From NCBI GenBank assembly GCA_030614305.1, contig JAUWKH010000080.1, positions 1 to 7,322 on the forward strand: 7,322 nucleotides of DNA, read 5' to 3'. Made by a program: the position numbers and the translations under genes. This DNA is from Bacteroidota bacterium. Its GTDB lineage: Bacteria; Bacteroidota; Bacteroidia; Bacteroidales; JADFUO01. Shown piece after piece: positions 1 through 5,447 of this stretch. The notes below the pieces were generated by a model. That model was not told the origin of the DNA. It did not search any database and worked only from the letters and a program-made list of their open reading frames with translations. Positions within the stretch are counted from its first letter, which is position 1. Every line of letters starts with the position of its first letter.

Positions 1-2255
1 CCATTATAATTATGTTTAATGGCACGTGGGATTTCTTTATAGGCAATTTTATTTTTGCTATTCATCTTTTTTACCCATTGGCAATTATTGTTATGCAGTT
101 CTTTTGTGTTTTTATTTGCTATAAATGGATGATCTCCCACAGCGAGTAATTGAGTAATACGACCCATTTCGAGGTTATCAACTAATTGTGCTACTGATAT
201 CTCATATCCTCCATCCGGTATTGAATCAGGCAAGATAAATTCCAGTTTGGCAATACAATTATCGTTTGATTTCAATTTGATATTACGCAAAAAAGATTTT
301 CTTCCGGATAAGACACTATATTCAAAGTAAAGAGTTGATTCGTTAGTTTTTGATAAACCATCAGTTGAAGCCTCAATACATAATCTTTTTAATATCTTCA
401 AATTCACTTCCATACCTGCTGGTAAAGAACTCAGATCAATTTGAAGGTCTGAGTAAATACTATTACCTGACCATCCTTGTATATGGAAATCAAGACGGTT
501 AACTGAGCCTGCAAACATATCTATTACATCAAAGTTTTTCCATGTTGCATTATTATTTCCCCTAATGAAGTTGTAAAAATCATTTATCGAAAGAATAGTG
601 GCAGGGTCTGGTGCAGGATCATTACCGCTGTTTACCAATGCAATAAAACAATAATGTCCCTGAGCAGGAATATCACCTGAAGGCCAAACCATAGGACCAA
701 CAACTTTAACACTATTTGAAGGAACAGATGGGATAGTTATTTGATCAACAAGATTCCATGAAGCTGGAGTTGGAAAAGTTGAAGGGGGTGACCAATATAC
801 GCTGGCTGTTCCTCCGGTAGCATTATTTCCTCTGTTATGAACTCTGAGATAGATGTAATTGTTTTGTCCGAATTCCACCGGTTCACCAAGATTCGCCTGG
901 CCAAGTGCTGAAGAAGTTCCCAAAACAGCTTCGGGATCAAGTAATTCCTGATTAAAAATTATTACATCAGGGCTGCATGAAATACCACCATCAATAAGAG
1001 GTTCACGGCCATGATCTTCAAGGTTATCTCGTAAATATAAGTCATGAGCAGGATAACCAAGAAAAATATTATCTCCTGCCCCGGCAGGTGATTCAGCTTC
1101 TACCGGTGTATCCAAATAACCCCAATGCGCAACTACAACATCATCAGCGTAAGTATGTGCTTCAGCTGCAGAAATCCTTCCGTCAGTATTTGTATCAACC
1201 ACCTGTGAAAGAGCGCCACCATCTGCATATTGACCGGTTACTGCAGCAATCCAATCCAATGCAAACGGGTCAAAATCTGCCCCTCCGTTAGAATTTCTGT
1301 CTTCTTCGCATGCTGCTGAAAAATGAGTCCATTTTGCAGTGCTGTTATCAATTACTGCATCTTCAAATCCACCGGAATGACATTGTTCCATCATCACCAT
1401 TAATACAGCAAATTCAGGTAACTCAGCAAGTTTATTCCCAAAAGCAGTGGAAGAATATTCAACCCAACCTATATTTTTATAGGCACATAAACCACTTATA
1501 GGGTATAATGGATCTGGTGGGCCATATCCATGATTATTAGAATGTATGAACAGAAAATCATCTTTTTTTAATTCTGTTTTCAGATCATCTAAGGCATTTT
1601 CAAGAGCAACACCTGTTCCTTCATCATCAACAGGCATCTGGTAAGCCGTATTATCTCCAGGCCAATTATTGACCGGTTTTGGGCCACCATTATAATTTAG
1701 TGTGCCATCATGATTTAAAACCGTGATCTTATTAGCATCAAAGCCGTAAATATCAATAAGGGTCCGGTAAAGAAATTCCATATCATTAACATGTCTGTTG
1801 TCTGACTCACCGGAAAACAATATAGCATACCTGTCGCCCCTGGCATTATTTAATGCATTTGTTATTGCCGGAATAGGTGAAGTAGAAAGTTTCCTGTCTT
1901 TTAACACATTTTTTCTTTTGACAGGAGTGTGAATATCCTCAAAACTTTCCGGATTTCTCATAAATTCTGACGGAGGGAAGCTTGCTTTTATTCTATTATA
2001 TATTTCTCCGGTTTCAGAATCACATAAAATATGTTCACAGGGATGTGCCCAGTTTAAAGTTGGAGCCTCATCAATAAGAACAAAGGCTGTTTTTTTGGGG
2101 ATGTCAATTTTTTGTAAACCTGCATTCATTTTAACTCCAGTATCTATTATATCATTTTTTAAATAAATATTGAAATCTTTCTGACAGTTCATTCTTTTCA
2201 AGCCACTAAGAACTTCTTTCTTAATTTTACTTTTAATTTCATTTTTAATTTTCAT
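1..2255 (-). CDS. C13 (legumain/GPI8-like) caspase-fold cysteine peptidase, multidomain, 3' end outside window
   Basis: The frame is open from ATG at 2255-2253 to the left edge (751 codons, no stop). An in-frame TAA (2280-2282) and an AGGAGG site bound the start. Residues 1-139 form an N-terminal module with an NWAHPC motif (68-73). The peptidase core starts near 140: DNRHVND (152-158) resembles the NYRHQAD motif of legumain, HG is at H242-G243, and EQCHSGG puts the likely nucleophile at C292, preceded by E290. AACEEDRNS (314-322) and a following D-W pair also fit C13. Residues 354-365 form an EF-hand-like loop, about 429-575 an Ig-like beta-sandwich, and H721-x3-C725-x-W727 begins a probable metal-binding tail. 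There is no signal peptide or membrane helix, so it is probably cytosolic. By homology to legumain it may cleave after Asn or Asp; the true substrate is unknown. The gene lies 304 bp downstream of a same-strand gene for a related short protein. Peptidase assignment is fairly secure; biological role is not. Confidence 0.85.
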   Translation of the reverse strand, partial: MKIKNEIKSKIKKEVLSGLKRMNCQKDFNIYLKNDIIDTGVKMNAGLQKIDIPKKTAFVLIDEAPTLNWAHPCEHILCDSETGEIYNRIKASFPPSEFMRNPESFEDIHTPVKRKNVLKDRKLSTSPIPAITNALNNARGDRYAILFSGESDNRHVNDMEFLYRTLIDIYGFDANKITVLNHDGTLNYNGGPKPVNNWPGDNTAYQMPVDDEGTGVALENALDDLKTELKKDDFLFIHSNNHGYGPPDPLYPISGLCAYKNIGWVEYSSTAFGNKLAELPEFAVLMVMMEQCHSGGFEDAVIDNSTAKWTHFSAACEEDRNSNGGADFDPFALDWIAAVTGQYADGGALSQVVDTNTDGRISAAEAHTYADDVVVAHWGYLDTPVEAESPAGAGDNIFLGYPAHDLYLRDNLEDHGREPLIDGGISCSPDVIIFNQELLDPEAVLGTSSALGQANLGEPVEFGQNNYIYLRVHNRGNNATGGTASVYWSPPSTFPTPASWNLVDQITIPSVPSNSVKVVGPMVWPSGDIPAQGHYCFIALVNSGNDPAPDPATILSINDFYNFIRGNNNATWKNFDVIDMFAGSVNRLDFHIQGWSGNSIYSDLQIDLSSLPAGMEVNLKILKRLCIEASTDGLSKTNESTLYFEYSVLSGRKSFLRNIKLKSNDNCIAKLEFILPDSIPDGGYEISVAQLVDNLEMGRITQLLAVGDHPFIANKNTKELHNNNCQWVKKMNSKNKIAYKEIPRAIKHNYN

Positions 2256-2260
2256 TATTA

Positions 2261-2266
2261 CCTCCT
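2261..2266 (-). promoter_or_regulatory. Strong Shine-Dalgarno site of the C13 peptidase gene
   Basis: The minus strand reads AGGAGG, then five bases, then ATG. This is a full consensus site at good spacing and it fixes the start at 2255. The other genes here have weaker sites or none, as is usual in Bacteroidota, so this gene stands out. I found no clean TAnnTTTG promoter in the 200 bases upstream. Confidence 0.75.
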
Positions 2267-2473
2267 GTTTTAAGTTTGTTTAAATATTAATATACTTTTA
2301 TTTTTAATAAATTCAGTATAAGTCTACTATTATTAGTTCCGAAAATTGATAAAAAGTAACCCCATACGAAGAAAATAAATTGAATTTAAAATCAATCTAA
2401 ATAAAAAGAAGAGACCTTTGCAATGCGAAAGATTTTATTTCAGATTGAGGAAAAATTCGATGAAAAACCGCAG

Positions 2474-2483
2474 TCCGTACGGA
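2474..2483. repeat. Perfect palindrome TCCGTACGGA, also found in near-identical form at 3207-3216
   Basis: TCCGTACGGA is its own reverse complement. With its left flank it reads CAGTCCGTACGGA, and the same 13 bases occur at 3204-3216 with one change (CAGTCCATACGGA). The two copies flank the small module gene, about 730 bases apart. They could be copies of a dispersed intergenic repeat or binding sites for a dimeric protein. A 13-base match with one difference in 7 kb suggests a shared origin but does not prove it. Confidence 0.5.
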
Positions 2484-2559
2484 TGAGGATTTAATATAAA
2501 AGGAATTATTTATAAAAAATATTTTTCGTAGAAAGTATTATTAGGGAATGTTAAGTTCA

Positions 2560-2922
2560 CTAATCGTAAACATTAAAATGCCTGTCATTAGAAGGTTTTG
2601 ATCCATATCTTAATAGCACTCTGTAGCTTTCCGGATAATTTTCATAAAAAACAGGAAACTGCTCATGAAACAGTTCGGTTTCAAATGTCTTAGAATCAAT
2701 CAGAAAATATATGCATGAATGCCCCCAGTTTAAGCGAGGTTGGAGATCTACAAATGCCAAATAGCTGTGTTTTTTTACTTCAATACTCCTTTTGCCAATA
2801 TTGATAATATCTCCACTTTTGTATGGTTCATAATTTAAATAAATAATTGATTGATTTTTTTGCTCTTTTGTCAAATGATTCAGGATTATTTTAAGTATTT
2901 CTTCTTTATTAAGATTTTCCAT
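2560..2922 (-). CDS. Small protein homologous to the N-terminal module of the adjacent C13 peptidase
   Basis: This encodes 120 residues from ATG (2922-2920) to TAG (2562-2560); an in-frame TAA at 2932-2934 bounds the start. I know no named family for it. Residues 28-81 align without a gap to residues 31-84 of the neighbouring peptidase, with 19 of 54 identical, including L64-N65-W66, H68, C70, L74, D76-S77, T79 and E81. A later FP (89-90) and PES (97-99) also match after a one-residue shift. Its end, GSKPSNDRHFN (107-117), resembles the NxRH motif that opens the C13 core, but the catalytic His and Cys regions are absent, so it cannot be a peptidase. There is no signal peptide or membrane segment; residues 5-24 probably form a helix. 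It could be a trans-acting inhibitor, adaptor or substrate of the peptidase, or a truncated paralogue. The good promoter and intact frame favour a working gene. No Shine-Dalgarno site is visible. Confidence 0.8.
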   Translation of the reverse strand: MENLNKEEILKIILNHLTKEQKNQSIIYLNYEPYKSGDIINIGKRSIEVKKHSYLAFVDLQPRLNWGHSCIYFLIDSKTFETELFHEQFPVFYENYPESYRVLLRYGSKPSNDRHFNVYD

Positions 2923-2947
2923 TTTAAATGATTATTATTGATTTATG

Positions 2948-2979
2948 CAAATATAGTAAATTGATTGTTGAAAAGCAAA
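2948..2979 (-). promoter_or_regulatory. Bacteroidota-type promoter of the small module gene
   Basis: On the minus strand TTTG (2979-2976) is followed after exactly 20 bases by TATATTTG (2955-2948). This matches the known Bacteroidota consensus of a TTG/TTTG -33 box, 19-21 bases, and a TAnnTTTG -7 box. It would start transcription about 20 bases before the ATG at 2922. It serves the small gene and, if no terminator intervenes, possibly the C13 peptidase gene downstream. Confidence 0.65.
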
Positions 2980-3152
2980 CATATAATATTTAACATTCTA
3001 TACTTAATTGCGCGCATTGGCGTTTCATTGAGTCGTTGTCCGATTATATCCAAATATGTATAATGTTAATAACTTAAACATTCAGGAAAAATATTTATAA
3101 TTAATTTTGCTTTTCCATAGCTTGTTATAGCTGAAATTGGTTAAAACATAGC

Positions 3153-3165
3153 GTAGCGAAGCTAC
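3153..3165. repeat. Small hairpin GTAGC-GAA-GCTAC
   Basis: A perfect 5-bp stem closes a GAA loop. It has no T-run on either strand that would make it a convincing terminator. It may be a fragment of a dispersed repeat, given the repeat-rich surroundings. Confidence 0.4.
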
Positions 3166-3203
3166 AAACAAATTAGCTTAAGTGATAGTTAATAAAAAGT
3201 CAG

Positions 3204-3290
3204 CAGTCCATACGGACTCCTTTCAGTCGTCGGCAGTCAGCAGTCAGCGATTAATAGACTGAAAACTAAGGACTGGGGACTGAGGGACTG
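3204..3290. repeat. Cluster of four CAGTC then four GACTG pentamers (imperfect inverted repeat)
   Basis: CAGTC occurs at 3204, 3224, 3234 and 3241, and its reverse complement GACTG at 3258, 3271, 3278 and 3286. The left arm includes a tandem CAGTCAG heptamer (3234-3247). Because all direct copies precede all inverted copies, several alternative hairpins can form around the loop at 3246-3257. The first copy lies in the near-palindrome AGTCCATACGGACT (3205-3218). It resembles simple intergenic repeats of Bacteroidota genomes; function is unknown. Confidence 0.65.
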
Positions 3291-3307
3291 ATAATCAAAA
3301 AACCAAT

Positions 3308-3328
3308 ACTTTGCTAAAAAAACAAAGT
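3308..3328. repeat. Weak hairpin ACTTTG / CAAAGT
   Basis: Six perfectly paired bases flank a 9-base A-rich loop and are followed by three more T residues. It has the outline of a weak intrinsic terminator in the plus direction, but no gene ends just upstream and the stem is AT-rich, so it is more likely incidental or part of the BatA-type gene leader. Confidence 0.25.
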
Positions 3329-3365
3329 TTTACAGGATAATAATATCAAAATAGTATAAAAATTT

Positions 3366-3369
3366 GGAG
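3366..3369 (+). promoter_or_regulatory. GGAG ribosome binding site of the BatA-type gene
   Basis: GGAG lies 11 bases before the ATG at 3381. The spacing is a little long, but it supports this start, which also gives the usual N-terminus of the family. Confidence 0.45.
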
Positions 3370-3380
3370 TAGTATTTATT

Positions 3381-5447
3381 ATGGAATTTGTGAATCCTTA
3401 TTTTTTATTCGGACTTTTTGCGGTGTCTATTCCGGTGATTATTCATTTATTTAATTTCAGAAAGTTTAAAAAGGTCTATTTTACAAATGTTAAATTTCTC
3501 AGGGAATTAAAGCAGGAAACCAAAAAGAAATCCCAACTGAAACATTTGATTATTCTTATTTTGCGTATACTCGCCATTATTTGTCTTGTTCTGGCATTTG
3601 CCCGACCTTATATTCCATTATCAAAAAATATTATTAGTCAGGATGAAAAAAGTGCAGTAAGTATTTATATTGATAATTCGTTTAGTATGGAAGCAAGGTC
3701 AACTGATGGATTTTTGATTGATGAGGCGAAAAATATAGCTGCTGAAATTGCACAGGCTTATAATTCTTCCGACCTTTTTCAAATACTTACAAATGATTTT
3801 GAAGGCAGGCATCAGCGTTTTGTAAGCAGGGATGAATTTATTGAAATGCTTGATGAGATTCAGGTTTCACCTTCGGTAAAAAATATCTCAGACGTTGTAA
3901 AACGTCAAAATGATAGGTTTTCTACTTATCAAACTGAAAATAAAATATCTTATCTTATATCTGATCTTCAGATAAGTATTTCCGATATTGACCGGATTGA
4001 TGAGGACACAACCATAATCAATTATTTTGTTCCGGTTTATCCCGGCAACACCGGCAATCTGTATATTGACAGTTGCTGGTTTGAATCGCCTGTTCATCAT
4101 ATTAATCAAAATGAAAAACTAAGTGTTAGAATAAAAAATACTTATGATAATGATATGGAAAAGATACCTGTAAAATTAAAGATAAACGGCAATCAAAAAG
4201 CTATAGCAAGCGTTGATGTTAAAGCAGGTTCTGAAACGGAAATAATTCTGCGGTTTACTAATTATGAAACAGGTATTCAAAACGGTTTTATCGAAATTAC
4301 CGATTATCCGGTTGTTTATGATGACATTTTTTATTTTTCATATTTTGTATCTGACAAAATACCTGTTTTATGTATTAATGGCACAGAAGAAAATATTTAT
4401 CTGAAAGCACTTTTCGGAGGGGATACATCCTTTGTATTTGATAATTCATACAGGAGTTATCTTGATTATTCGTCGCTAAAAAACTATAAATTGGTAATTA
4501 TCAACAAGCTGGATGAGCTTTCATCGGGTTTAGGACAGGAATTAAAACGATTTGTTGAAAATGGCGGGTCACTGGTTGTTCTTCCTTCCGGAAAAATGGA
4601 TTTTGATTCGTATAAAAACTTTTTATTAACAATGAATGCTGCCTGGTATTCAGGTTTGGATACTTTTAATACCAAGGTTGATTATATAAATTATGATAAC
4701 GAAATATTTAATGATGTTTTTGAAGATGATCCAACAACTAACAGGAAAGATAACAGGATCATAGATTTACCTGTAGTTTTAAAACATTTTAAATTTACCA
4801 GCTTAAGCCGGTCTGAAATTGAACCATTATTGAGAATTCAAAATGGAGATGAGTTTTTAAGTGTTGTACCATTCGGATATGGGAAATTATATCTTTTTGC
4901 TGTGCCTTTTGAAACCTCTTTCAGTAATTTCACAAAACATGCGATATTTGTGCCTGTTATGTATAAAATTGCTTTGTTAAGCGATATTGGAAATAAATTA
5001 TTTTATACAATTGGGAGCAATGAATATATTGAGCTTAATCAGGCGCAACTTAAAAAGGATGATGTTTATAAGCTTAAAAAGGAGAATGCTGACTTTGAGA
5101 TAATCCCCGGACAGAAATATATTAATAACAGATTACGCCTGAACATGTATGATCAGATTAAACAAGCAGGTAACTACGTGTTAATGAATGGTGAAAAAAA
5201 TATTATCGGTATTTCATTTAATTACGATCGCAGGGAATCAAATCTCGGCTCATATAAGATTGATGATTTAAATAATATTATCAGCAGTAATAATTTAAAA
5301 AATTTTTTAGTTCTTGATGTTGGCGACAGGACATTATCACAGGCGTTGATAGATTTGCACAAAGGAATACAACTTTGGAAGTTATTTATTATTTTAGCGC
5401 TGATTTTTTTAGCAGCAGAAGTGTTAATTATAAGAATCTGGAAATAG
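3381..5447 (+). CDS. BatA-type membrane protein with von Willebrand A-like domain
   Basis: This 688-residue protein begins with the characteristic BatA N-terminal domain: FVNPYFLFGLFAVSIPVIIH (residues 3-22) carries the first membrane helix, a basic KFKKVYFTN stretch follows, and a second helix lies at about 56-74 ending in AFARPYIP. A von Willebrand A-like domain follows with a metal-site motif D98-N-S100-F-S102 and a second acidic position at D195 in ISDLQ. Residues 327-405 (IPVLCING to GGSLVVLPSG) look like a glutamine-amidotransferase-like fold without visible catalytic residues. A third membrane helix lies at about 667-685. The middle should therefore face the periplasm. Proteins of this kind are common in Bacteroidota and named after the Bacteroides aerotolerance (bat) genes, but their role is poorly known. 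No MoxR or other bat gene is in the window. The downstream neighbour, 100 bases away, is parC, probably only a chance neighbour. Family assignment is firm; function is not. Confidence 0.9.
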   Translation: MEFVNPYFLFGLFAVSIPVIIHLFNFRKFKKVYFTNVKFLRELKQETKKKSQLKHLIILILRILAIICLVLAFARPYIPLSKNIISQDEKSAVSIYIDNSFSMEARSTDGFLIDEAKNIAAEIAQAYNSSDLFQILTNDFEGRHQRFVSRDEFIEMLDEIQVSPSVKNISDVVKRQNDRFSTYQTENKISYLISDLQISISDIDRIDEDTTIINYFVPVYPGNTGNLYIDSCWFESPVHHINQNEKLSVRIKNTYDNDMEKIPVKLKINGNQKAIASVDVKAGSETEIILRFTNYETGIQNGFIEITDYPVVYDDIFYFSYFVSDKIPVLCINGTEENIYLKALFGGDTSFVFDNSYRSYLDYSSLKNYKLVIINKLDELSSGLGQELKRFVENGGSLVVLPSGKMDFDSYKNFLLTMNAAWYSGLDTFNTKVDYINYDNEIFNDVFEDDPTTNRKDNRIIDLPVVLKHFKFTSLSRSEIEPLLRIQNGDEFLSVVPFGYGKLYLFAVPFETSFSNFTKHAIFVPVMYKIALLSDIGNKLFYTIGSNEYIELNQAQLKKDDVYKLKKENADFEIIPGQKYINNRLRLNMYDQIKQAGNYVLMNGEKNIIGISFNYDRRESNLGSYKIDDLNNIISSNNLKNFLVLDVGDRTLSQALIDLHKGIQLWKLFIILALIFLAAEVLIIRIWK

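Follow-up and report, generated by a model that had tools for sequence, protein, structure and literature searches.

A free-standing homologue of a peptidase N-terminal module encoded beside C13 peptidases, a candidate inhibitor in trans

Results

The window, the whole stretch of 7,322 nucleotides of Bacteroidota DNA analysed here, carries on its minus strand a small gene for a free-standing protein, hereafter the solo, and downstream of it on the same strand the gene of a large peptidase. Both open reading frames lie where the sequence-only reading of this DNA had placed them, and the pair comprises the following features:

2560..2922, minus strand: solo gene, 120 aa, a free-standing copy of the N-terminal module (open reading frame; homology to the peptidase N-terminus)
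2713..2748, minus strand: solo core motif D59..P62..N65-W66-x-H68-x-C70 (D..P..NW and NWxH in 60/60 database solos)
3..2255, minus strand: C13 (legumain-type) peptidase, 751 of 763 residues, an open reading frame with its C-terminus cut by the window edge
1941..2234, minus strand: peptidase N-terminal module, residues 8-105, with NWAHPC at 2037-2054 (BLASTP against the solo; conserved in 10 aligned proteins)
1056..1832, minus strand: C13 catalytic domain, about residues 142-400, far border approximate (alignment of 10 relatives, motifs, profile match to plant legumains)
3..1055, minus strand: peptidase C-terminal part, residues 401-751, with a Cys-rich segment at its end (common to the Methanomethylovorans hollandica peptidase over its length)
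2256..2559, no strand: spacer of 304 bp between the solo and peptidase genes, in which a hairpin resembling a terminator lies at 2482-2468, minus strand

Counterparts of the window peptidase in three relatives of the genus are 763 aa long. Pairwise BLASTP aligns the solo with peptidase residues 8-105 at 32 identities in 99 columns (32%), with 5 gaps and E=4e-11. The sequence-only reading had described an ungapped core of 54 columns with 19 identities (peptidase residues 31-84 against solo residues 28-81); the translations confirm this core, and the true span of homology is wider, at about peptidase residues 8-105. Queried with the solo at E up to 10, the whole assembly returned just the solo itself and the peptidase N-terminus (E=2.2e-8), and the likeness of the two proteins is therefore beyond chance. 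The solo gene had also been credited with a good promoter, a claim that did not hold up against shuffled sequence: both strands of 2200-3400 contain 9 promoter-like matches versus 6.8 (s.d. 2.9) in shuffles. The same interval contains three terminator-like hairpins, all on the strand of the genes, versus 0.3 expected (s.d. 0.6), with one between the genes and two upstream of the solo. As read from sequence, the 304-bp spacer and its hairpin would argue against a tight operon in the window. Two short, similar palindromic segments at 2466-2484 and 3205-3218 flank the solo gene. In three relatives (L018, L019 and L020) a metallo-beta-lactamase-like gene lies between the solo and a BatA-like gene; it is 279 aa long in relatives, appears as a 111-aa open reading frame in L018, and is missing from the window (2923-3380).

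We next assigned the peptidase to family C13. The window protein retains catalytic residues His242 (NNHG, codon 1530-1532) and Cys292 (EQCHSGG, codon 1380-1382), and H242-G243 and C292 stand in the expected C13 order and are invariant in all ten aligned relatives. A profile built from ten relatives matches solved plant legumains, including 5obt (E=2.3e-8) and 5nij (1.2e-7), over profile positions of about 123-316; a single-sequence search of solved structures with the window peptidase found no legumain. In Pfam, neither the window peptidase nor its 763-aa sister has any match up to E=1, and eight of the 13 module-bearing proteins scanned exceed the 22.8-bit cut-off of PF01650 (Peptidase_C13), namely L040, L042, L043, L044, L045, L021, L022 and L059. 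L041 falls below it at 20.6 bits, and the window peptidase, L018, L092 and L058 have no match, so that L092, the G759 protein, is assigned to the C13 type by motifs judged by eye only. The M. hollandica peptidase (L059) scores 32 bits to Pfam C13 and is 48% identical to the window peptidase over 795 columns. Behind the catalytic domain the C-termini are variable, with a long tail common to the window and archaeal type whose Cys-rich segment weakly resembles the Ada metal-binding domain (Ada_Zn_binding, E=0.15 in the M. hollandica peptidase, below the cut-off). The paired peptidase L041 (6303-8459) ends in a propeller that matches the Photorhabdus lectin PLL2 (E=1.3e-135), and L043 and L044 carry other repeats, for which a search with L043 found no solved relative. 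PADLOC models at E<=0.01 returned no family for six proteins (the window solo and peptidase and four paired peptidases).

The pair recurs across genomes. At all ten cellular loci with a solo that were read, nine of them found via the solo and the archaeal one via the peptidase, the solo adjoins a module-bearing C13 peptidase. Both genes occur on the same strand in 4/4 genomes examined from the window's genus, with gaps of 234-393 bp (304 bp in the window). In a family of another class, centred on G557, five of 86 genomes carry solo and peptidase side by side on the same strand, and at E<=0.01 neither gene was found in these 86 genomes without the other. Gene order varies: in L040, L042 and L041 the peptidase comes first, overlapping the solo by 4 bp in the former two and separated from it by 116 bp in L041, and in L043 and L044 the solo comes first, 12 bp ahead of the peptidase. 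In searches that could miss a divergent module, the class sample gave a module match in one of 395 genomes, the window's own, and the phylum sample gave the module in eight of 395, comprising six with the pair and two (G538 and G759) with a long secreted protein only and no solo elsewhere in the genome either. The sequence-only reading had looked for solos conserved beside C13 genes, and adjacency indeed extends over two bacterial classes and an archaeon; of its concern that solos might be rare or stand without a peptidase, the rarity is real (6/395 genomes in the phylum sample), and no solo without a peptidase was seen in that sample. Several candidates were rejected. A phylum search with alignment A1 matched 9/296 genomes, two of which were judged chance: G528, also the sixth, weak match in the family survey, which lacks the D..P motif, and G667, where the match falls in a GxxExxY-like open reading frame with an ending frame. 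Of 11 genomes matched in the search behind the genus result, seven (E 0.004-0.09) had their matches in frames judged unrelated by eye, for example FtsX-like permeases and ribosomal protein genes.

Of 449 candidates from a profile search for further relatives, 60 were solos with E<=0.1. D..P..NW and NWxH are present in every one of these database solos and NWxHxC in 52 of 60 (alignment A6 omits six of them: P0001, P0022, P0033, P0057, P0059 and P0060); where the source gives a name, it is 'hypothetical protein', and none of 55 solos scanned matched Pfam above chance level. One database solo, P0048, has a signal-peptide-like N-terminus, and at least one solo thus seems exported. We constructed a phylogenetic tree from 34 solos (27 of 60 database and seven of ten paired), 11 modules and three viral copies, so that the G759 module, the pairs G001-G003 and the other 33 of the 60 database solos are not represented. 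In this tree all sampled solos group into a single clade (94/63; 92% of bootstrap trees; 0/500 shuffles), and the modules make up another, weakly supported one (69/35; 70%). In no case is the module of its own peptidase alone the closest to a solo, and the window solo ties (30%) with the G655 module. Because this solo clade is separate from the modules, the solo is a long-standing partner and no recent local duplicate, and the tree and the solo-module identities together weigh against recent local duplication.

Selection on the solo, which the sequence-only reading had wished to see checked for relaxation, is purifying, with NG86 omega of 0.16-0.34 in the genus compared to 0.08-0.32 for the peptidases. 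Constraint on the solo is weaker than on the peptidase in the two other pairs compared (0.29 versus 0.09-0.11). The window peptidase hardly differs from that of G003 (dS 0.028), whereas the solos of these two genomes are less alike (dS 0.126), and the two genes have therefore not always moved together. Over five lineages, solo and catalytic-domain distances correlate (r=0.84; 5/120 permutations), a result that is suggestive only.

Among plasmid records, the sole match was pMETHO01 of the archaeon Methanomethylovorans hollandica DSM 15978 (NC_019972.1). Its solo is a 111-aa open reading frame with an ATG start (L059:7579-7914), located 50 bp upstream of the C13 peptidase on the same strand, at a position where the collection's incomplete table lists no gene. 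The archaeal and window solos are 29% identical over 109 columns (E=5e-21), the archaeal sequence having been one codon too long in part of the comparisons, among them the solo-module identities and the tree. With a broad alignment, a solo-like module was also detected in four contigs of a viral collection (L074:9839-10174, L077:9830-10150 and L075/L076:9554-10162, the last two carrying the same open reading frame), whose HMM E-values are not unbiased because the contigs were fetched by the motif itself. In the fetched DNA of these four contigs, tblastn with C13 cores gave only weak matches (E 0.04 or worse). An earlier scan of viral contigs with close solos found none, a tblastn search of GenBank phages with the paired peptidase L040 found no relatives, and of six proteins compared with PHROGs two viral ones had one weak match each (E 0.02 and 0.08). 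In L074 and L077 the solo-like module adjoins a zinc-finger gene that is DksA-like by eye.

We then compared paired peptidases with module-bearing proteins that have no solo. No signal peptide is visible by eye in the paired peptidases, whereas secretion looks likely for four module-bearing relatives from cellular genomes in which no solo adjoins the gene. Both a signal peptide and a type IX tail are present in L045 and L092, with the module between the signal peptide and the catalytic part; L021 has a type IX tail and a start at the contig edge; and in L022 (9400-12909) a signal peptide lies upstream in a frame that contains a stop, the frame of this C13 relative being interrupted by stops. 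L058, on a viral-collection contig, is a module protein with no visible signal peptide, no solo in the fetched DNA, and catalytic residues that look lost by eye. The absence of a signal peptide in paired forms and the secreted appearance of unpaired relatives suggest that a cell which retains an active peptidase would need the solo.

An AF2 model of the solo is confident (mean pLDDT 89.9, pTM 0.84) and predicts two short helices followed by seven strands. Fold searches with this model gave no good match among solved or viral structures, including no known inhibitor fold, so the predicted structure appears to lend no support to an inhibitor fold of a known kind or to a helical, death-like one; the absent match is no evidence for a new fold. 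AF2 modelling of the full peptidase, with a pLDDT of 31 from six sequences, is uninformative on module placement.

Discussion

Together, these data identify the solo as an anciently separated, stand-alone relative of the peptidase module that lies beside a C13 peptidase at ten loci. We propose, with a probability of about one half, that it is a prodomain-like inhibitor acting in trans that silences the peptidase in the producer's cytoplasm. In this mechanism, the cis module would cover the catalytic domain like a prodomain, the solo would bind the same site on a freed or leaky catalytic domain, and the producer would thereby be protected from a peptidase destined to work once it is released or triggered. 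The missing signal peptide in paired forms, set against the secreted look of the unpaired relatives, points to an inhibitor that keeps the peptidase inactive in the cytoplasm, and the PLL-type lectin propeller of L041 would fit an enzyme released onto glycans. By analogy, inhibition in trans is also favoured because the module occupies the place of a prodomain in the secreted relatives, and because a free homologue encoded by an adjoining gene would follow the logic of the streptococcal inhibitor Spi, discussed below. Against it count the peptidase's own cis module, which makes a second copy in trans not obviously necessary, the 304-bp spacing with its hairpin, the discordant dS values of the window and G003, the lack of both signal peptide and solo in L058, and the absence of a known inhibitor fold.

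We favour this inhibitor over two other functional roles, of which a homotypic adaptor or activator is the stronger, though a tentative one. The solo and the cis module might bind each other and thereby recruit or cluster the peptidase, or block its clustering, as a signalling switch like the death-fold prodomains of caspases. Such a role would suit two homologous copies that are both kept and a sporadic distribution (5/86 genomes in one family), and in the available text of one report effector-associated domains of bacterial conflict systems are repeatedly encoded as additional copies close to effectors, with homotypic interaction as their presumed mode (PMC8195603). A glance at neighbouring genes also showed a TIR-domain and Sel1-repeat gene (TIR_2, E=1e-22; L041:11713-12417) about 3 kb from the L041 pair. 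The same text gives nine of 12 known effector-associated domains as alpha-helical (PMC8195603), whereas the module is predicted to be mostly beta, and in the small sample of loci read it is fused only to C13-type proteins and not to a range of effectors. Less probable still, and in our view unlikely, is a solo that serves as a chaperone or sensor subunit of the peptidase, with the D..P..NWxH core binding a small ligand, metal or peptide or aiding folding. The D, P, N, W and H residues invariant in all 60 database solos could indeed reflect ligand binding rather than protease contact, which also weighs against the inhibitor, and the module stands alone in four viral contigs where C13 cores match weakly (E 0.04 or worse). 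Such invariance can equally be structural, however, and the motif cysteine is absent from eight of 60 solos, so a His-Cys metal site is not universal.

That the solo is a functionless, decaying local duplicate of the peptidase 5' end we regard as very improbable. Such a leftover would fit the neighbouring position of the genes and, in the window, their looser spacing of 304 bp and the terminator-like hairpin, but it is opposed by omega values of 0.16-0.34, by a solo clade distinct from the modules, with no sampled solo having the module of its own peptidase as its single closest relative, by the 4-bp overlap in L040 and L042, and by the 60 database relatives. Returning to the solo as an inhibitor, a bolder extension would make cis prodomain and trans immunity protein a general arrangement for cytoplasmic C13 peptidases, acting as released toxins or death effectors in bacteria and archaea, with large phages carrying solos to switch the peptidases off; we consider this improbable.

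If the inhibitor reading is correct, a module family without a meaningful Pfam or structural match would gain a role, and solos now labelled 'hypothetical protein' would become part of a testable enzyme-regulator pair, of which the named archaeal strain M. hollandica DSM 15978 carries a workable copy. Plant and animal legumains share the catalytic domain, by profile, and the His/Cys motifs with the window peptidase; legumains carry a C-terminal prodomain, whereas window-type peptidases have an N-terminal module of another kind. In an open-access library searched for bacterial C13/legumain pairs, prodomains and adaptors, the matches listed contain no description of a solo/C13 pair.

SpeB is a secreted protease. 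The sequence-only reading knew of no described bacterial system with such an arrangement, which is too strong, since SpeB and Spi, in the accessible parts of the source, are a cysteine protease of family C10 and an adjacent propeptide analogue (PMC2873492). As far as those parts describe it, Spi is encoded beside SpeB and is considered to block protease that becomes active too early, while still in the cytoplasm, and the two genes are said to be co-transcribed (PMC2873492, PMC3462683). The likeness lies in a cysteine peptidase gene whose small neighbour encodes a protein analogous to the N-terminal propeptide of that peptidase. SpeB belongs to family C10 and has a papain fold, whereas the window peptidase belongs to family C13 in clan CD, the paired C13 form has no signal peptide by eye, and its module has no meaningful Pfam match. 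Because its catalytic domain is C13 and not C10, the window pair is no member of the SpeB-Spi family and is alike in logic only.

Staphopain-staphostatin (C47) and the Bacteroides Bfp/Bfi and Btp/Bti systems (C10) likewise place a gene for an inhibitor or predicted inhibitor immediately upstream or downstream of the peptidase gene, with few-base spacing and variable order, according to the portions available (PMC2873492, PMC3462683). A small gene adjoining a peptidase gene in variable order is common to these systems and ours. As those portions have it, staphostatins are lipocalin-like and Bfi proteins have no significant identity to protease propeptides (PMC2873492, PMC3462683), whereas the solo is homologous to the module of its own peptidase. 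Effector-associated domains, in the text available, resemble the pair in having a terminal module on an effector and extra copies encoded nearby, and differ in being mostly helical and joined to many effector types (PMC8195603), whereas the solo module is predicted to be mostly beta and, in the loci read, is fused only to C13-type proteins. The solo and its peptidase would thus form a prodomain-analogue gene pair of a type known from papain-like proteases, here with a peptidase of clan CD and in both bacteria and an archaeon; if inhibition holds, the prodomain-as-inhibitor pair known for papain-like bacterial proteases would extend to legumain-type peptidases, which belong to clan CD, and beyond bacteria to an archaeon.
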